A DNA stretch of 20,376 nt from a virus: the IMG/VR virus record IMGVR_UViG_3300031787_001038, positions 1-20,376 of that record; one strand, 5' to 3'. Positions 2,323-20,376 of the stretch are shown here, piece after piece; within the stretch, counting starts at the first letter, position 1, and the number at the start of each line of letters is the position of its first letter. The translations under genes and the position numbers were made by a program. The notes under the pieces were generated by a model that saw only the letters and a program-made list of their open reading frames with translations, searched no databases and was not told where the DNA came from.

Positions 2323-2954
2323 GGTTTCACTCTGGCTCGGTCTGGGTCGAGTTGTACGGCGACGACCGCATCTGCGAGAAGGTGCGCGCCGGGAACCCGT
2401 TTGAGCCCGAGACCTTGCAGGCGTGGGCCGACTTCTGCCAGCCCGGCACCGTGGCGATCGACGTGGGGGCCTACTCTGGCCTGTTCTCCATCGTCGCCGC
2501 CAAGCGCGGGGCCCGCGCCATCGCCGTAGAGCCCCTGCCGGTCATGCAGAAACGGATTGCTGACAACGCCGCGCTCAACGAAGTCGAGATCGAAGTCATC
2601 GCTGGCGCTGCCTCGGACGCCACGGGTGAGGCGAACATCCGATACAACGACCGCGTCCACCTGACCTCTGGCGCATCACTTCTCTTGAAAAATGGTCTCA
2701 ATCTACGGATAAGGACGTTCAGACTGGATCATTTGGAGATTCAGGGCCCGGTCTCCGTGATGAAGATCGATGTCGAACGGCACGAACTGGCCGTTCTGGA
2801 GGGGGCCAGCGAACTCATCGTTCGGGATCGTCCTCACCTGATCGTAGAATTTCTGGACGCCAAGGCCAAGGAAGCCATCATCAAGATGCTGCCGGGCTAC
2901 ACGGTGCGTGCCGTGACGGATGTCCGCAACATGATCATGTCACCGCGGGAATAG
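2310..2954 (+). CDS. FkbM-family SAM-dependent methyltransferase
   Basis: The protein is 214 residues from ATG 2310, which lies 13 nt inside the upstream gene; a TTG at 2283 in the same frame is less convincing. Motif I, AIDVGAYSGLFSIVAA (about 49-64), binds S-adenosylmethionine, followed by the acidic ribose-binding strand IAVEPLP (71-77) and NAALN. The FkbM signature appears as MKIDVERHELAVLEGA (151-166), and the protein ends with HLIVEF and a C-terminal helical region. The family O-methylates sugars and polyketides, and is common in polysaccharide and glycoprotein clusters. In this context it most likely caps the sugar added by the neighbouring glycosyltransferases (inference). An oddity is Arg in place of the usual Gly in the KIDVEGxE motif. 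Confidence 0.85.
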   Translation: MDTLGFHSGSVWVELYGDDRICEKVRAGNPFEPETLQAWADFCQPGTVAIDVGAYSGLFSIVAAKRGARAIAVEPLPVMQKRIADNAALNEVEIEVIAGAASDATGEANIRYNDRVHLTSGASLLLKNGLNLRIRTFRLDHLEIQGPVSVMKIDVERHELAVLEGASELIVRDRPHLIVEFLDAKAKEAIIKMLPGYTVRAVTDVRNMIMSPRE

Positions 2955-2959
2955 CGAAA

Positions 2960-3331
2960 ATGGCAAAGCGGCCGGCTGGGTTGAACAGTGGCGATCTGCG
3001 CCACCTGATCACCATTGAGGAGCCCTATGTCTCCTCGTCTGGCCGGGCCAATGAGCCCATCGAGTCGTGGCGCAAGTGGCGTGACGCCTATGCCCACGTC
3101 ACGACGGCCCCGGGCCGCGAGTTCTACCAGCAGGGACCAAATTACCCCTCCACGGTGGGCCAGACCCGCTCGGAGCAGATCCACAGGTTCCACTGCCGCC
3201 ATTTCGAAGTGCAGAACGTGACGGCCACCATGCGGATCCGGTTTGAAAACAAGGTCTACGACATCACCGACATCAGGCCTGACCACAGCGGGCAGTCGCT
3301 GACGGTCATCGAAGCGAGGCTGGTGCAGTGA
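2960..3331 (+). CDS. Head-tail adaptor / head closure protein (Phage_H_T_join family)
   Basis: The protein is 123 residues, starting 5 nt after the methyltransferase stop. The pattern is typical of SPP1 gp16-like head-closure proteins: an N-terminal GDLRHLITIEEP strand, a turn with SWRKWRDAYAHV, REFYQQG, RSEQIHRF, then MRIRFENKVYDITDIRPD and a final LTVIEARLV strand. Length fits the family (100-130 residues). It closes the portal channel and provides the docking surface for the tail. There is little SD sequence before ATG 2960 (GCGAAA), so coupling to the upstream gene is likely. This is the first clearly structural gene after the glycan module. Confidence 0.85.
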   Translation: MAKRPAGLNSGDLRHLITIEEPYVSSSGRANEPIESWRKWRDAYAHVTTAPGREFYQQGPNYPSTVGQTRSEQIHRFHCRHFEVQNVTATMRIRFENKVYDITDIRPDHSGQSLTVIEARLVQ

Positions 3332-15457: not shown

Positions 15458-15823
15458 ATGGACGACTCTGACGCATTTGGCCCGGAAGTAGGTAGCCGCC
15501 AAGATGGCATGGCGTCCGAAGAATATGGCCCCGCCCGACGAGCCATGAGAGGAGAGGCCAGTATGGCGAACAATGAGGAAAGTTGGCACTTGGATCGACG
15601 GGTTCCGCTGGCAATGATTTTTGCCTTCGTGGCGCAAACCCTTGTTCTTGTCTACGTCGGCACGACTTGGAAGGTCGAGGTCGAGTCCAGACTGAATGTC
15701 TTGGAGAAGTTTGACGAGCGGGCTCAGTCTCAGGAGTCTCGCGTCATCGTCGTTGAGCAGAAGCTCACATTCATCGCTGACAGCGTGCAGCGCATTGAGG
15801 ACGCTCTGGCCAAGAAGCCGTAG
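15458..15823 (+). CDS. Single-pass membrane protein with coiled coil (i-spanin-like topology), possible dual start
   Basis: From ATG 15458 the protein is 121 residues, with GAAAGG 7 nt upstream. A second in-frame ATG at 15563 has an even better AGGAGAGG (15550-15557) 5 nt upstream and gives 86 residues. The shorter form has a basic start (DRR), one transmembrane helix (VPLAMIFAFVAQTLVLVYVG, about 14-33) and then a charged coiled coil to the end. This N-in, periplasmic coiled-coil topology is that of Rz-type i-spanins, and the gene precedes the endolysin. No lipoprotein o-spanin partner is evident nearby, so a holin-like or other lysis role is also possible. The extra 35 residues of the long form are polar. 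Confidence 0.6.
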   Translation: MDDSDAFGPEVGSRQDGMASEEYGPARRAMRGEASMANNEESWHLDRRVPLAMIFAFVAQTLVLVYVGTTWKVEVESRLNVLEKFDERAQSQESRVIVVEQKLTFIADSVQRIEDALAKKP

Positions 15824-15883
15824 CGCGCCGGCCACGGCAAAGTGGCCTCATTCTTTCATTTTCGCCAAAGACTGGAGAATACC

Positions 15884-16570
15884 GTGAAGCCTGAACAGAC
15901 TTTTCGGCTCAAGGCCCCGTGGCTGATGCGGCGGCTGATTGCCGAGTTCAACATTTCGATCCTCGACGCAGCCGCGGTCGCCGGGAACGGCGGGCATGAG
16001 AGTGGCGGCTTCACCAAGCTTCAGGAGATCAAGCCCGTCGTGAAGGGTTCCCGCGGTGGCTACGGCTGGTTCCAGTGGACGGGCCCCCGCCGCCGCGACT
16101 ACGAGGCTTGGTGCAAGGCCAAGGGCCTCGACCCGGCGTCCGATGAGGCCAACTACGGCTTCCTTGTCCATGAGCTTCGCACGACCGAGAAGAAGGCGGT
16201 CCCGGCCACCATGAAGGCCAAGACCCTGCGGGACAAGGTCATCGCCTTTGAGATGGCCTACGAGCGGGCAGGGGTGAAGCACTACGACTCCCGCGTCAGG
16301 TGGGCTGAGATCGCGCTGGACGCCCATAAGAAGGCCAGCGCCAAGCCGGTGCAGCCGGTGCCCCCGGCAGCCCCTGTAGCCCCCGCGCCGAAGCCTGCGC
16401 CGACGCCAGCCCCGACACCAGCGCCCAGCCCCAAGCCGCCTGAGCCTGACATGCCTGTGGCCGACAATTCCGGCCCGCCCCCGGCCGCCGGCCGCAACGT
16501 GGCAGCCATTGTGCTGGGTGCCGCAGGCGCTCTCATCGCCGCCTTGGCGGCTTGGCTCATTGGAGGGTAG
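15884..16570 (+). CDS. Endolysin (phage tail-lysozyme-type domain) with Pro/Ala linker and C-terminal membrane anchor
   Basis: The protein is 228 residues from GTG 15884, chosen because GGAG (15874-15877) lies 6 nt upstream; an earlier GTG at 15842 has no SD. The catalytic domain covers about residues 10-150. AVAGNGGHESGGF contains the probable catalytic Glu39, and GGYGWFQWTGPRRRDYEAW is the substrate-binding block of the phage lysozyme family related to PF18013. Residues 154-202 are a Pro/Ala/Lys-rich linker and 206-226 (VAAIVLGAAGALIAALAAWLI) are one hydrophobic helix. It should cleave peptidoglycan glycan strands. A membrane tail at the C-terminus is uncommon for endolysins. It lies between a membrane coiled-coil protein and holin candidates, confirming a lysis cassette. 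Confidence 0.82.
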   Translation: MKPEQTFRLKAPWLMRRLIAEFNISILDAAAVAGNGGHESGGFTKLQEIKPVVKGSRGGYGWFQWTGPRRRDYEAWCKAKGLDPASDEANYGFLVHELRTTEKKAVPATMKAKTLRDKVIAFEMAYERAGVKHYDSRVRWAEIALDAHKKASAKPVQPVPPAAPVAPAPKPAPTPAPTPAPSPKPPEPDMPVADNSGPPPAAGRNVAAIVLGAAGALIAALAAWLIGG

Positions 16571-16574
16571 CATC

Positions 16575-16787
16575 ATGCGCGATTACATCAGACAGCGCTC
16601 CAAGGCCTTCGCAGCCGGTCTGGCGGCGGCCATCGTCACCGCACTCATCAAGTTGGCAGAGAAGAGCTTCGGCTTCGATCTGGAAGACGAAATCGAACTG
16701 ATGATCGTCAGCGCCGTGGCGGGCTACATCAACTGGCTGGTCGTTTACTGGGCCCCGGCCAACGCGCCCATGGATCCAAAGGCATGA
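16575..16787 (+). CDS. Two-helix holin candidate
   Basis: The protein is 70 residues from ATG 16575, with GGAGGG (16562-16567) 7 nt upstream, directly after the endolysin stop. It has a basic N-terminus (MRDYIRQRSK), a first helix AFAAGLAAAIVTALIKLA, an acidic connecting loop (FDLEDEIE) and a second helix LMIVSAVAGYINWLVVYW. Two helices with a short charged loop and small size match class II holins. It would form the membrane lesion that triggers lysis. Position next to the endolysin supports this. Its stop overlaps the start of a tiny downstream membrane gene (ATGA). Confidence 0.68.
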   Translation: MRDYIRQRSKAFAAGLAAAIVTALIKLAEKSFGFDLEDEIELMIVSAVAGYINWLVVYWAPANAPMDPKA

Positions 16788-16882
16788 TCCCGCTTGCCAT
16801 CGACATTCTGCAAGCCATCTTCGTTCTCTCAGGCGCTTTTATCGCAATCTTGATCAACCCGTATTGGGAGGGCGAGGAATGA
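16784..16882 (+). CDS. 32-residue single-pass membrane protein
   Basis: ATG 16784 overlaps the holin stop (ATGA 16784-16787), and its own TGA 16880-16882 overlaps the next gene start at 16879 (again ATGA). The coded protein is 32 residues: a short start, then AIDILQAIFVLSGAFIAILI (about 5-24) as one hydrophobic helix, then the polar end NPYWEGEE. The exact double overlap fits the packing of this operon and argues that it is translated by coupling. It may be a holin partner, an antiholin or another small lysis-timing protein. I do not recognise a family, and the role is inferred only from topology and neighbours. Confidence 0.6.
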   Translation: MIPLAIDILQAIFVLSGAFIAILINPYWEGEE

Positions 16883-17298
16883 TTGGCGCGTCGATCGCCA
16901 AGTCGATCGTGAACTGGATCACGAACGGCTTGGTGGACAAGATCCTCGACGGCTGGAACGCCTACCTCCGCAAGGAGATCTCGGAAGCCGAGTTTGAGAG
17001 CCGGGTCAGAATCTCCGCACAGGAGACGGCGGCCAAGGTCGAGGAAAGCTGGGCTCAGGCGGCCAGAGAGTCCATCAAGGCCGTCCACGCCAGCCTTGCG
17101 GTTTCTCCCACTCTGCAACGGGCGTGGGCAGCAGTGCTCTTCCTGCAAGTCGCTGTGCTGGTCTGGTATCAGATTGGTGCGCCCGCGTTCAAGGTCATCA
17201 CCGGAGTCCCATGGCCCGACCCGGGCGTAACGCTGGAGTGGGCCTATGTTCTGGTCGGCTCCCAACTCGGCATCGGAACCCTTATCTTCCGAAAATGA
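16879..17298 (+). CDS. Membrane protein, two C-terminal helices (GTA holin-like / lysis-associated)
   Basis: The protein is 139 residues from ATG 16879, with GAGG (16875-16878 region) close upstream. The N-terminal about 75 residues are helical and soluble (LVDKILDGWNAYLRKEISEAEFESR, AAKVEESWAQAARESIKAVHASL). Two hydrophobic helices follow, AWAAVLFLQVAVLVWYQIG (about 82-100) and WAYVLVGSQLGIGTLIF (about 121-137), with a polar hairpin PWPDPG between. Helical soluble N-terminus plus C-terminal membrane helices recall the 3TM GTA-release holins, but I cannot assign the family. It is the last plus-strand gene of the late operon. Confidence 0.65.
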   Translation: MIGASIAKSIVNWITNGLVDKILDGWNAYLRKEISEAEFESRVRISAQETAAKVEESWAQAARESIKAVHASLAVSPTLQRAWAAVLFLQVAVLVWYQIGAPAFKVITGVPWPDPGVTLEWAYVLVGSQLGIGTLIFRK

Positions 17299-19331: not shown

Positions 19332-19658
19332 TTACAGCACTGCCGATGCAATGCGACTGAACGCAGACTTGGCGCGAGCAGTGAGCGACACCAGCTTCTG
19401 GCGATGATCGTCAGGGTTGGCGCGGAAGCAGATCCAGCCGACCTCTTCCAATTCGTTCAGGTATTTGTAGACCGTGGGCGGCGTGCCGATCTCCGCGTCA
19501 TGCACGATGTCGGTGACATTCATCACTCGGCCGTTGGTCTCCTCAATCCCGATGTACTCAAGGATAGAGTAGGCGGGCAGGCTCAGGTTGCTGAGCTTCT
19601 GCTTGCGCTCGGCCTCACGGCGGGCTGCTGCCATCGCGAAATAGTTCTGGTGACTCAT
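19332..19658 (-). CDS. MarR-type winged-helix transcriptional regulator
   Basis: The protein is 108 residues from ATG 19658, with a strong AGGAG 4 nt upstream. The helix-turn-helix lies at about residues 48-72 (VTDIVHDAEIGTPPTVYKYLNELEEVGWI), with recognition helix TPPTVYKYLNELEEVG, followed by the wing PDDHRQKLVSLTARAKSAF (82-100), matching the MarR DxR...LT.KG pattern. It is shorter than the usual 140-residue MarR and lacks most of the dimerisation helices, so it may dimerise differently. It probably regulates the minus-strand operon. A candidate operator is at 19705-19716. Confidence 0.82.
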   Translation of the reverse strand: MSHQNYFAMAAARREAERKQKLSNLSLPAYSILEYIGIEETNGRVMNVTDIVHDAEIGTPPTVYKYLNELEEVGWICFRANPDDHRQKLVSLTARAKSAFSRIASAVL

Positions 19659-19717: not shown

Positions 19718-19882
19718 TCAGAGAAGCTTTGACTGGCCGGCAGCACGCGCCGCCAGTTCCTCATCGATCCGGCGCTCAAGGCGCTTGGACTCGTCAAGGT
19801 AAAAGCTGCCCCGGGTTTTGAAGTACGACTTCTGTGCGGCGCGCATCTGGCGCACCGTTTCGATAAGCTCAGCGTCAGTCAT
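19718..19882 (-). CDS. Small charged helical protein (54 residues)
   Basis: Read on the minus strand from ATG at 19882 to TGA at 19718-19720, giving 54 residues. It begins TDAELIETVRQMRAAQKSYF, continues FKTRGSFYLDESKRLERRID and ends EELAARAAGQSKLL. It overlaps the upstream gene stop exactly as ATGA (19879-19882), which with the strand-consistent packing argues it is real. Charged two-helix proteins of this form (VRxMRxAQKxYFKTR) recur in phage early operons without known function. It is followed by the 59-nt gap leading to the regulator gene. Confidence 0.68.
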   Translation of the reverse strand: MTDAELIETVRQMRAAQKSYFKTRGSFYLDESKRLERRIDEELAARAAGQSKLL

Positions 19883-20133
19883 CGCTTCGCCTTCTTCTTC
19901 TTCTTTTTCTTCTTCTTCTTGGGTGGGCTCTTCTTGGGTGGAGGAGGAGCGGCAGCCACGGCCGGAACCTCATTCGGTAACTGGGCTCGCTTGAATGGGT
20001 TGGCGACCGGCTCCCTGATGATGACGGCACATGGAGTCTTGCTCGCCAGTGTCACCCTCAGCACATGCGACTCATCGATGTGCGACACGCAAGACGCGCC
20101 TGAGAGGAAGACAACGGCGAGGATCTTGCTCAC
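19879..20133 (-). CDS. Small exported-looking protein ending in a ten-lysine run
   Basis: The protein is 84 residues from GTG 20133, in a GTGA overlap with the upstream stop and with GGAG close by. The first 15 residues (SKILAVVFLSGASC) look like a short signal peptide with a possible but imperfect lipobox at Cys15 (SGASC). The middle is beta-like (HVLRVTLASKTPCAVIIREPV). The C-terminal third is low-complexity: PAVAAAPPPPKKSPP then ten lysines and AKR. The family is not recognisable. Proline- and lysine-rich small lipoproteins can act as outer-membrane spanins, but this gene is far from the lysis cassette and on the other strand. DNA or RNA contact by the lysine tail is another option. Function is unknown. 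Confidence 0.55.
   Translation of the reverse strand: MSKILAVVFLSGASCVSHIDESHVLRVTLASKTPCAVIIREPVANPFKRAQLPNEVPAVAAAPPPPKKSPPKKKKKKKKKKAKR
19890..19920. repeat. CTT/CTTT pyrimidine tract (lysine codon run on minus strand)
   Basis: A 31-nt uninterrupted pyrimidine tract on the plus strand made of CTT units with one TTT. On the minus strand it encodes ten consecutive lysines as AAG codons with one AAA. Such a triplet tract can change length by slippage without breaking the frame, so lysine number may vary among relatives. Confidence 0.75.
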
Positions 20134-20376
20134 TCCGACTCATCCTTCTGGTCAACCACTTGCTGCATGGTGGGGGCAGCCACCTTGGGCTCGTCGCCCA
20201 GAATGTCTGCAAGCTCGGTGTCACGGATTTTAGCGCGATCCCTGATCCACACCTTGGTCGTTTCAAGGTCGCGGATGTGAGCATCAAGCCGTTCGACAAG
20301 CTGCTCGGCCATCTGGTTGCCAGCATCCTTCTCCGCTTTCACCTTGGTGAAAAGCTTGGTGATGAATGTGGTGATG
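20130..20376 (-). CDS. Helical/coiled-coil hypothetical protein (partial, start outside window)
   Basis: The frame is open from the window edge to TGA at 20130-20132, so the gene starts beyond 20376; a GTG at 20342 is an internal codon rather than a needed start. The visible part begins ITTFITKLFTKVKAEKD, continues as a charged helix (QMAEQLVERLDAHIRDLETTKVWIRDRAKIRDTELADIL) and ends PTMQQVVDQKDESE. The pattern is an amphipathic or coiled-coil helix and no family is recognised. It overlaps the next gene by GTGA and so belongs to the same operon. Confidence 0.65.
   Translation of the reverse strand, partial: ITTFITKLFTKVKAEKDAGNQMAEQLVERLDAHIRDLETTKVWIRDRAKIRDTELADILGDEPKVAAPTMQQVVDQKDESE

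Follow-up and report, generated by a model that had tools for sequence, protein, structure and literature searches.

A probable 32-codon membrane-protein gene, overlapped at both ends, in a viral lysis cassette

The lysis cassette and its 32-codon frame

The window, by which we mean the whole 20,376-base virus record analysed here, carries tail genes in its left part, recognised by matches to tail proteins, followed by a lysis cassette on the + strand (Table 1). Between the holin-like gene and a gene for a 139-aa membrane protein lies a short frame whose translation is MIPLAIDILQAIFVLSGAFIAILINPYWEGEE (32 residues). At its 5' end, the TGA of the holin-like gene falls within an ATGA whose ATG, at 16784, opens the frame, while at its 3' end the frame's own TGA (16880-16882) lies within a second ATGA, in which the ATG of the 139-aa gene begins at 16879. 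The initial annotation had proposed a one-helix protein of 32 residues here, joined to both neighbours by exact ATGA overlaps. The frame, its coordinates and both overlaps are confirmed in the sequence, and the single helix is borne out by prediction, as the peptide has one hydrophobic stretch of 19 residues (6-24) with a mean Kyte-Doolittle hydropathy of 2.39. The peptide contains four acidic residues and neither lysine nor arginine, and its C-terminal tail is NPYWEGEE. The initial annotation put its size below common gene-calling limits; Prodigal has a floor of 90 nt, and the gene, at 99 nt, is just above it.

Table 1. Coordinates of cassette features in the window and of a second tiny gene in related records.
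Feature	Record	Positions	Strand	Description
121-aa protein	window	15458..15823	+	a membrane segment predicted at 49-67 precedes a probable coiled coil; possibly spanin-like
Endolysin	window	15842..16570	+	Phage_lysozyme2 (PF18013, E 1.4e-22), proline-rich linker, C-terminal membrane segment
70-aa holin-like protein	window	16575..16787	+	two predicted membrane segments (11-29, 40-58); phrog_962 holin, E 0.021
32-aa one-helix membrane protein gene	window	16784..16882	+	ATGA overlaps at both ends; homologue in L030
Shine-Dalgarno-like stretch	window	16865..16878	+	in the last codons of the 32-aa gene, abuts the 139-aa start codon; same sequence in L030
139-aa membrane protein	window	16879..17298	+	long helix followed by a pair of predicted membrane segments close to the C terminus
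39-41 aa one-helix gene	L007	4672-4791 region		
39-41 aa one-helix gene	L008	4670-4795		
39-41 aa one-helix gene	L009	4679-4804		
39-41 aa one-helix gene	L027	2239-2358		
39-41 aa one-helix gene	L028	2654-2773		
39-41 aa one-helix gene	L029	2656-2781		

All of the cassette neighbours of the 32-aa gene have predicted membrane segments. The 70-aa protein has no match in Pfam, DUF7940 included, and has homologues in L012 (76% identity) and L002 (63%). The 139-aa protein is the conserved member of the cassette, with 22 relatives in IMG/VR, and its AlphaFold model is of low confidence (pLDDT 68). When members of its family were compared with PHROG, 19 of 20 matched phrog_12264, of unknown function, and 9 of 20 matched the 'holin' family phrog_3427 (best E 1.5e-4), so that the family appears distantly holin-like; the window copy itself matches phrog_12264 only (E 0.0055). 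The further suggestion in the initial annotation, that three consecutive small membrane genes form a multi-part holin system, is plausible, with the qualification that the 70-aa protein is only weakly holin-like by its phrog_962 match and that the holin matches of the 139-aa family do not extend to the window copy.

The membrane segment of the endolysin reaches a hydropathy of 2.40 at residues 222-240. A proline-rich stretch followed by a hydrophobic segment ends all 20 endolysins compared, those of the window and of 19 of the 22 relatives (L002-L012, L014, L018, L025, L026, L028-L030, and L115). The catalytic domains vary, the 10 scanned comprising 2 Phage_lysozyme2, 5 GH19 (one just under the Pfam cut-off), and 3 Phage_lysozyme domains, a pattern suggestive of a common tail anchor on swapped enzymes. 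C-terminal endolysin anchors are treated as limited to chi-like and related phages in the accessible text on Enc34 (PMC8943055). Directly before the endolysin, the 121-aa protein has homologues in L006, L011, L014, and L015 (34-44% identity), located upstream of their cassettes, and is possibly a spanin-like or lysis accessory gene.

Conservation of the frame and its expectation by chance

A homologous frame occupies the same slot in one other record, L030 (IMG/VR contig 3300031857_000472, positions 2903-3001), with GTGA overlaps at both ends and the product VIPLALDLWHAAIVLIGALVALVVNPHWEGEE. The two proteins are identical at 19 of 32 residues (59%) and positive at 26 of 32 (BLASTP, E 6e-15 in a single comparison), and both copies have a hydropathy peak above 2.3. 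Differences at codon positions 1, 2, and 3 number 13, 3, and 15, respectively, and the Nei-Gojobori method over codons 2-32 gives a dN of about 0.30 and a dS of about 1.05 (dN/dS about 0.28). Random placement of the same 30 changes leaves a mean of 12.3 identical residues, compared to the 18 of 31 seen, and only 32 of 20,000 trials reach 18, in a test that draws on one sequence pair and a simple placement model. The other two frames of the region are less conserved between the two records, and one of them has stops.

The overlaps taken by themselves prove nothing. Under a lax definition (ORFs of 25-60 aa that begin with ATG, GTG, or TTG and on each side overlap an ORF of at least 60 aa by 4 nt), the window holds 5 such cases against a mean of 2.51 per dinucleotide shuffle, and at least one occurs in 88 of 100 shuffles; because shuffled sequence so often gives the same geometry, this is not proof of a gene. 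These counts, together with the abundance of long open frames here, are what a chance open frame without a product has in its favour. Geometry combined with a strong hydrophobic helix is not common by chance. When starts are restricted to ATG and GTG and a hydropathy of at least 2.0 is required, the 32-aa ORF is the one case in the window and 200 shuffles yield none. The decisive evidence is the homologue, which occupies the very same position and whose amino-acid sequence is under selection. We therefore regard a chance frame as very improbable and 16784-16882 as very probably a coding gene. To that extent the initial annotation is upheld in seeing a genuine and conserved small membrane gene as part of the lysis cassette. 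The window and L030 frames, which share slot, homology, and both overlaps, make up a new family of two members so far, the gene being of a familiar kind.

Part of this conservation may be regulatory. All 14 nucleotides of the Shine-Dalgarno-like stretch match between the window and L030, third codon positions too, and because this stretch lies immediately before the 139-aa start, the WEGEE ending may be kept for translation of the next gene. Such identity fits a ribosome-binding rather than a protein constraint, and to that degree it counts against the functional peptide that we favour. The selection signal does not come from these last codons alone, since codons 2-27 give a dN of 0.38 and a dS of 1.08. 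The frame might then act mainly as a translational bridge, conveying ribosomes that leave the holin gene to the 139-aa gene, whose ribosome-binding site it also contains, with a peptide of little or no function. The exact overlaps at both ends, the shared Shine-Dalgarno-like stretch, the small size of the gene, and the lack of a clear ribosome site of its own at the usual spacing all agree with such a role. However, no bridge is needed, because 17 of the 22 relatives obtain the same coupling by a direct 4-nt overlap (RTGA or TTGA) of the holin stop and the 139-aa start, and the residues encoded ahead of the ribosome site show more conservation than chance would give, while third positions vary most. 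On these grounds we consider the bridge unlikely, though it is the strongest competitor to a functional peptide.

As for the kind of protein encoded, hydropathy predicts the single transmembrane helix of class III, or one-helix, holins, and no known holin family was matched in Pfam or PHROG at E values up to 1. Identity as an i-spanin or o-spanin was rejected, as 32 residues leave no space for a coil and cysteine is absent. A truncated i-spanin was weighed because many DUF7940-type holins are followed by an ATGA-overlapping gene with an N-terminal helix and a charged tail; it was set aside, given that both 32-aa proteins end in NPxWEGEE, that neither has a coil, and that the 139-aa gene comes next.

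Distribution among relatives

The junction between the holin and the 139-aa gene was compared across the 22 relatives, by script in 21 and from the ORF list in L115. The expectation that the frame would be conserved in relatives with similar neighbours holds for L030 and fails for the other 21, and since 21 of 22 do without it the gene appears to be optional rather than essential to the cassette. Besides the direct 4-nt overlaps, L024 has a one-base overlap and L031 (the contig of L012) a 12-nt gap, while in L115 a 94-aa membrane gene at the position of the holin directly overlaps the 139-aa homologue. In L032 (the contig of L002), the slot is filled by a two-helix frame of 53 aa that is apparently unrelated and is joined to both neighbours by GTGA overlaps (5210-5371 of L002). 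Between the endolysin and the holin, 6 of the 22 relatives have another, distinct tiny gene for a one-helix protein of about 39-41 aa, with YW near its start and a strongly hydrophobic second half (Table 1).

By profile, 19 of the 22 relatives, L030 among them, have a DUF7940-type holin in front of the 139-aa gene, and all 15 of the scanned holins of this type match PF25612 and phrog_1356, but the window 70-aa protein has no DUF7940 match. The two carriers thus have upstream holins of unrelated families and homologous 139-aa genes, so the 32-aa peptide is tied to the slot or to the 139-aa gene rather than to any one holin. In a tree built from 20 sequences of the 139-aa protein, one from the window and the others from 19 of the 22 relatives, the window copy clusters with those of L014 and L015 (91/86) and the L030 copy with that of L026 (96/92), and these three partners are without the 32-aa gene. 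The carriers form no clade and two changes are needed on the tree, the starred branches forcing two, so the gene has been gained or lost more than once, or has moved. The window and L030 records also have three right-end genes in common (19332-19658, 19879-20133, and 20130-20342; 50 to 71% identical where they match) and therefore represent related phages that differ in their lysis parts. The second of these, on the - strand of the window, is an 84-aa frame whose start is hydrophobic (VFLSGASC) and which carries a lysine run near its end; it has 71% identity over 48 residues to a frame in L033 (the contig of L030) and is a possible small lipoprotein.

An optional, patchy gene that stands behind two unrelated holins and marks no clade is what would be expected of an accessory gene, and the product could be a membrane peptide with a role outside lysis, for instance in superinfection exclusion or host takeover, riding in the late operon. 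Its location inside the lysis cassette and its coupling on both sides speak against this, and late expression would presumably be late for exclusion. We judge such a role to be quite unlikely.

Searches for further copies covered several collections. Scans of IMG/VR with the 70-aa protein and its alignment, the 139-aa protein and its alignments, and an alignment of DUF7940 holins (80 of 99 kept) recovered a single contig with a 32-aa homologue, and two DNA patterns for both ends of the frame added no homologue contig to L030; pattern matches L118-L121 have no homology past the pattern and were rejected. A two-copy profile run against all six-frame ORFs of the window and 115 loci, L001 being a piece of the window, gave no third copy (next best E 3.3). 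In GTDB genomes, the 139-aa alignment found nothing, and the one match to the 32-aa pattern, a Geodermatophilus gene, translates as a thiolase-like frame and is put down to chance. The phage and plasmid collections returned no copy of the 32-aa gene, and the phage collection no match for the 70-aa or 139-aa protein. As the 32-aa searches of the phage, plasmid, and GTDB sets relied on exact patterns or on tblastn, for which the query is short, more copies may exist. Among open-access papers, we found no description of the gene, no mention of DUF7940, and no report on small phage genes and holins.

Proposed role and comparison with known lysis systems

We hypothesize, at roughly even confidence, that the 32-codon frame is genuine and translated as a late gene, its product being a membrane peptide that serves the lysis cassette as an optional accessory. 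The gene would be coupled to its neighbours, and the peptide would tune the holin or the 139-aa protein. Position, coupling, and hydrophobicity make a role in lysis plausible, and it is on position that the assignment would chiefly rest. Ribosomes ending the holin-like gene would restart at the ATGA of the 32-aa gene, and those ending the 32-aa gene would restart at the 139-aa gene, aided by the Shine-Dalgarno-like stretch in the last codons. The peptide would insert in the inner membrane as a single acidic-tailed helix and may modulate when the holin, or the holin-like 139-aa protein, permeabilises the membrane, whereupon the membrane-anchored endolysin could reach the wall. We infer each of these steps (translation, membrane insertion, partner, and effect on lysis) from the arrangement and features of the genes.

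The contents of the junction (the 32-aa gene in the window and L030, the 53-aa gene in L002) also lend themselves to a more speculative reading, which we hold at low confidence, namely that it is an exchangeable one-gene slot bounded by RTGA...RTGA, in which tiny membrane genes recombine in and out cleanly at the repeated stop/start overlap as swappable lysis-timing modules. More generally, the 32-aa gene contributes an apparently coding membrane gene family of very small size to the multi-gene lysis cassettes, whose number is growing, and it suggests that whole genes can enter or leave such a cassette where a stop and a start codon overlap. Should the peptide indeed tune lysis, it would be a lysis regulator of very small size, and one readily tested, because nature offers cassettes both with the gene and without it.

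The nearest studied parallel to the 70-aa/32-aa pair, in layout, is LysF1a/LysF1b of the F1 mycobacteriophages, in whose lysis cassette a two-helix holin-like gene is followed, across a 4-bp ATGA overlap, by a one-helix gene; as described in the accessible text, efficient lysis needs both proteins and deletion of LysF1b has a phenotype (PMC13056207). The 32-aa gene shares with LysF1b the ATGA overlap with an upstream two-helix lysis gene. It differs in that LysF1b, with mycobacterial hosts, has 124 aa and a charged C-terminal domain (PMC13056207), whereas the 32-aa peptide is without basic residues and has the tail NPYWEGEE in place of a long charged domain. The cassettes of Gordonia phages, described as carrying up to four unrelated holin-like genes each, are alike in freely combining several small unrelated membrane genes, a likeness in layout between phages of different hosts (PMC9671378), and P1 is likewise described as using several holin-like genes (PMC9025707). 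In the available portions of the reports on Siskin (PMC6498227), M4Lys (PMC7143992), Enc34 (PMC8943055), and AP1 (PMC8879335), no 32-aa gene is reported beside the endolysin. The endolysins of Siskin and Enc34 have two C-terminal helices, unlike that of the window, and the catalytic domain of Enc34 belongs to another family (PMC6498227, PMC8943055). What the window has in common with all four, so far as these sources describe them, is a C-terminally anchored endolysin beside a holin-like gene.
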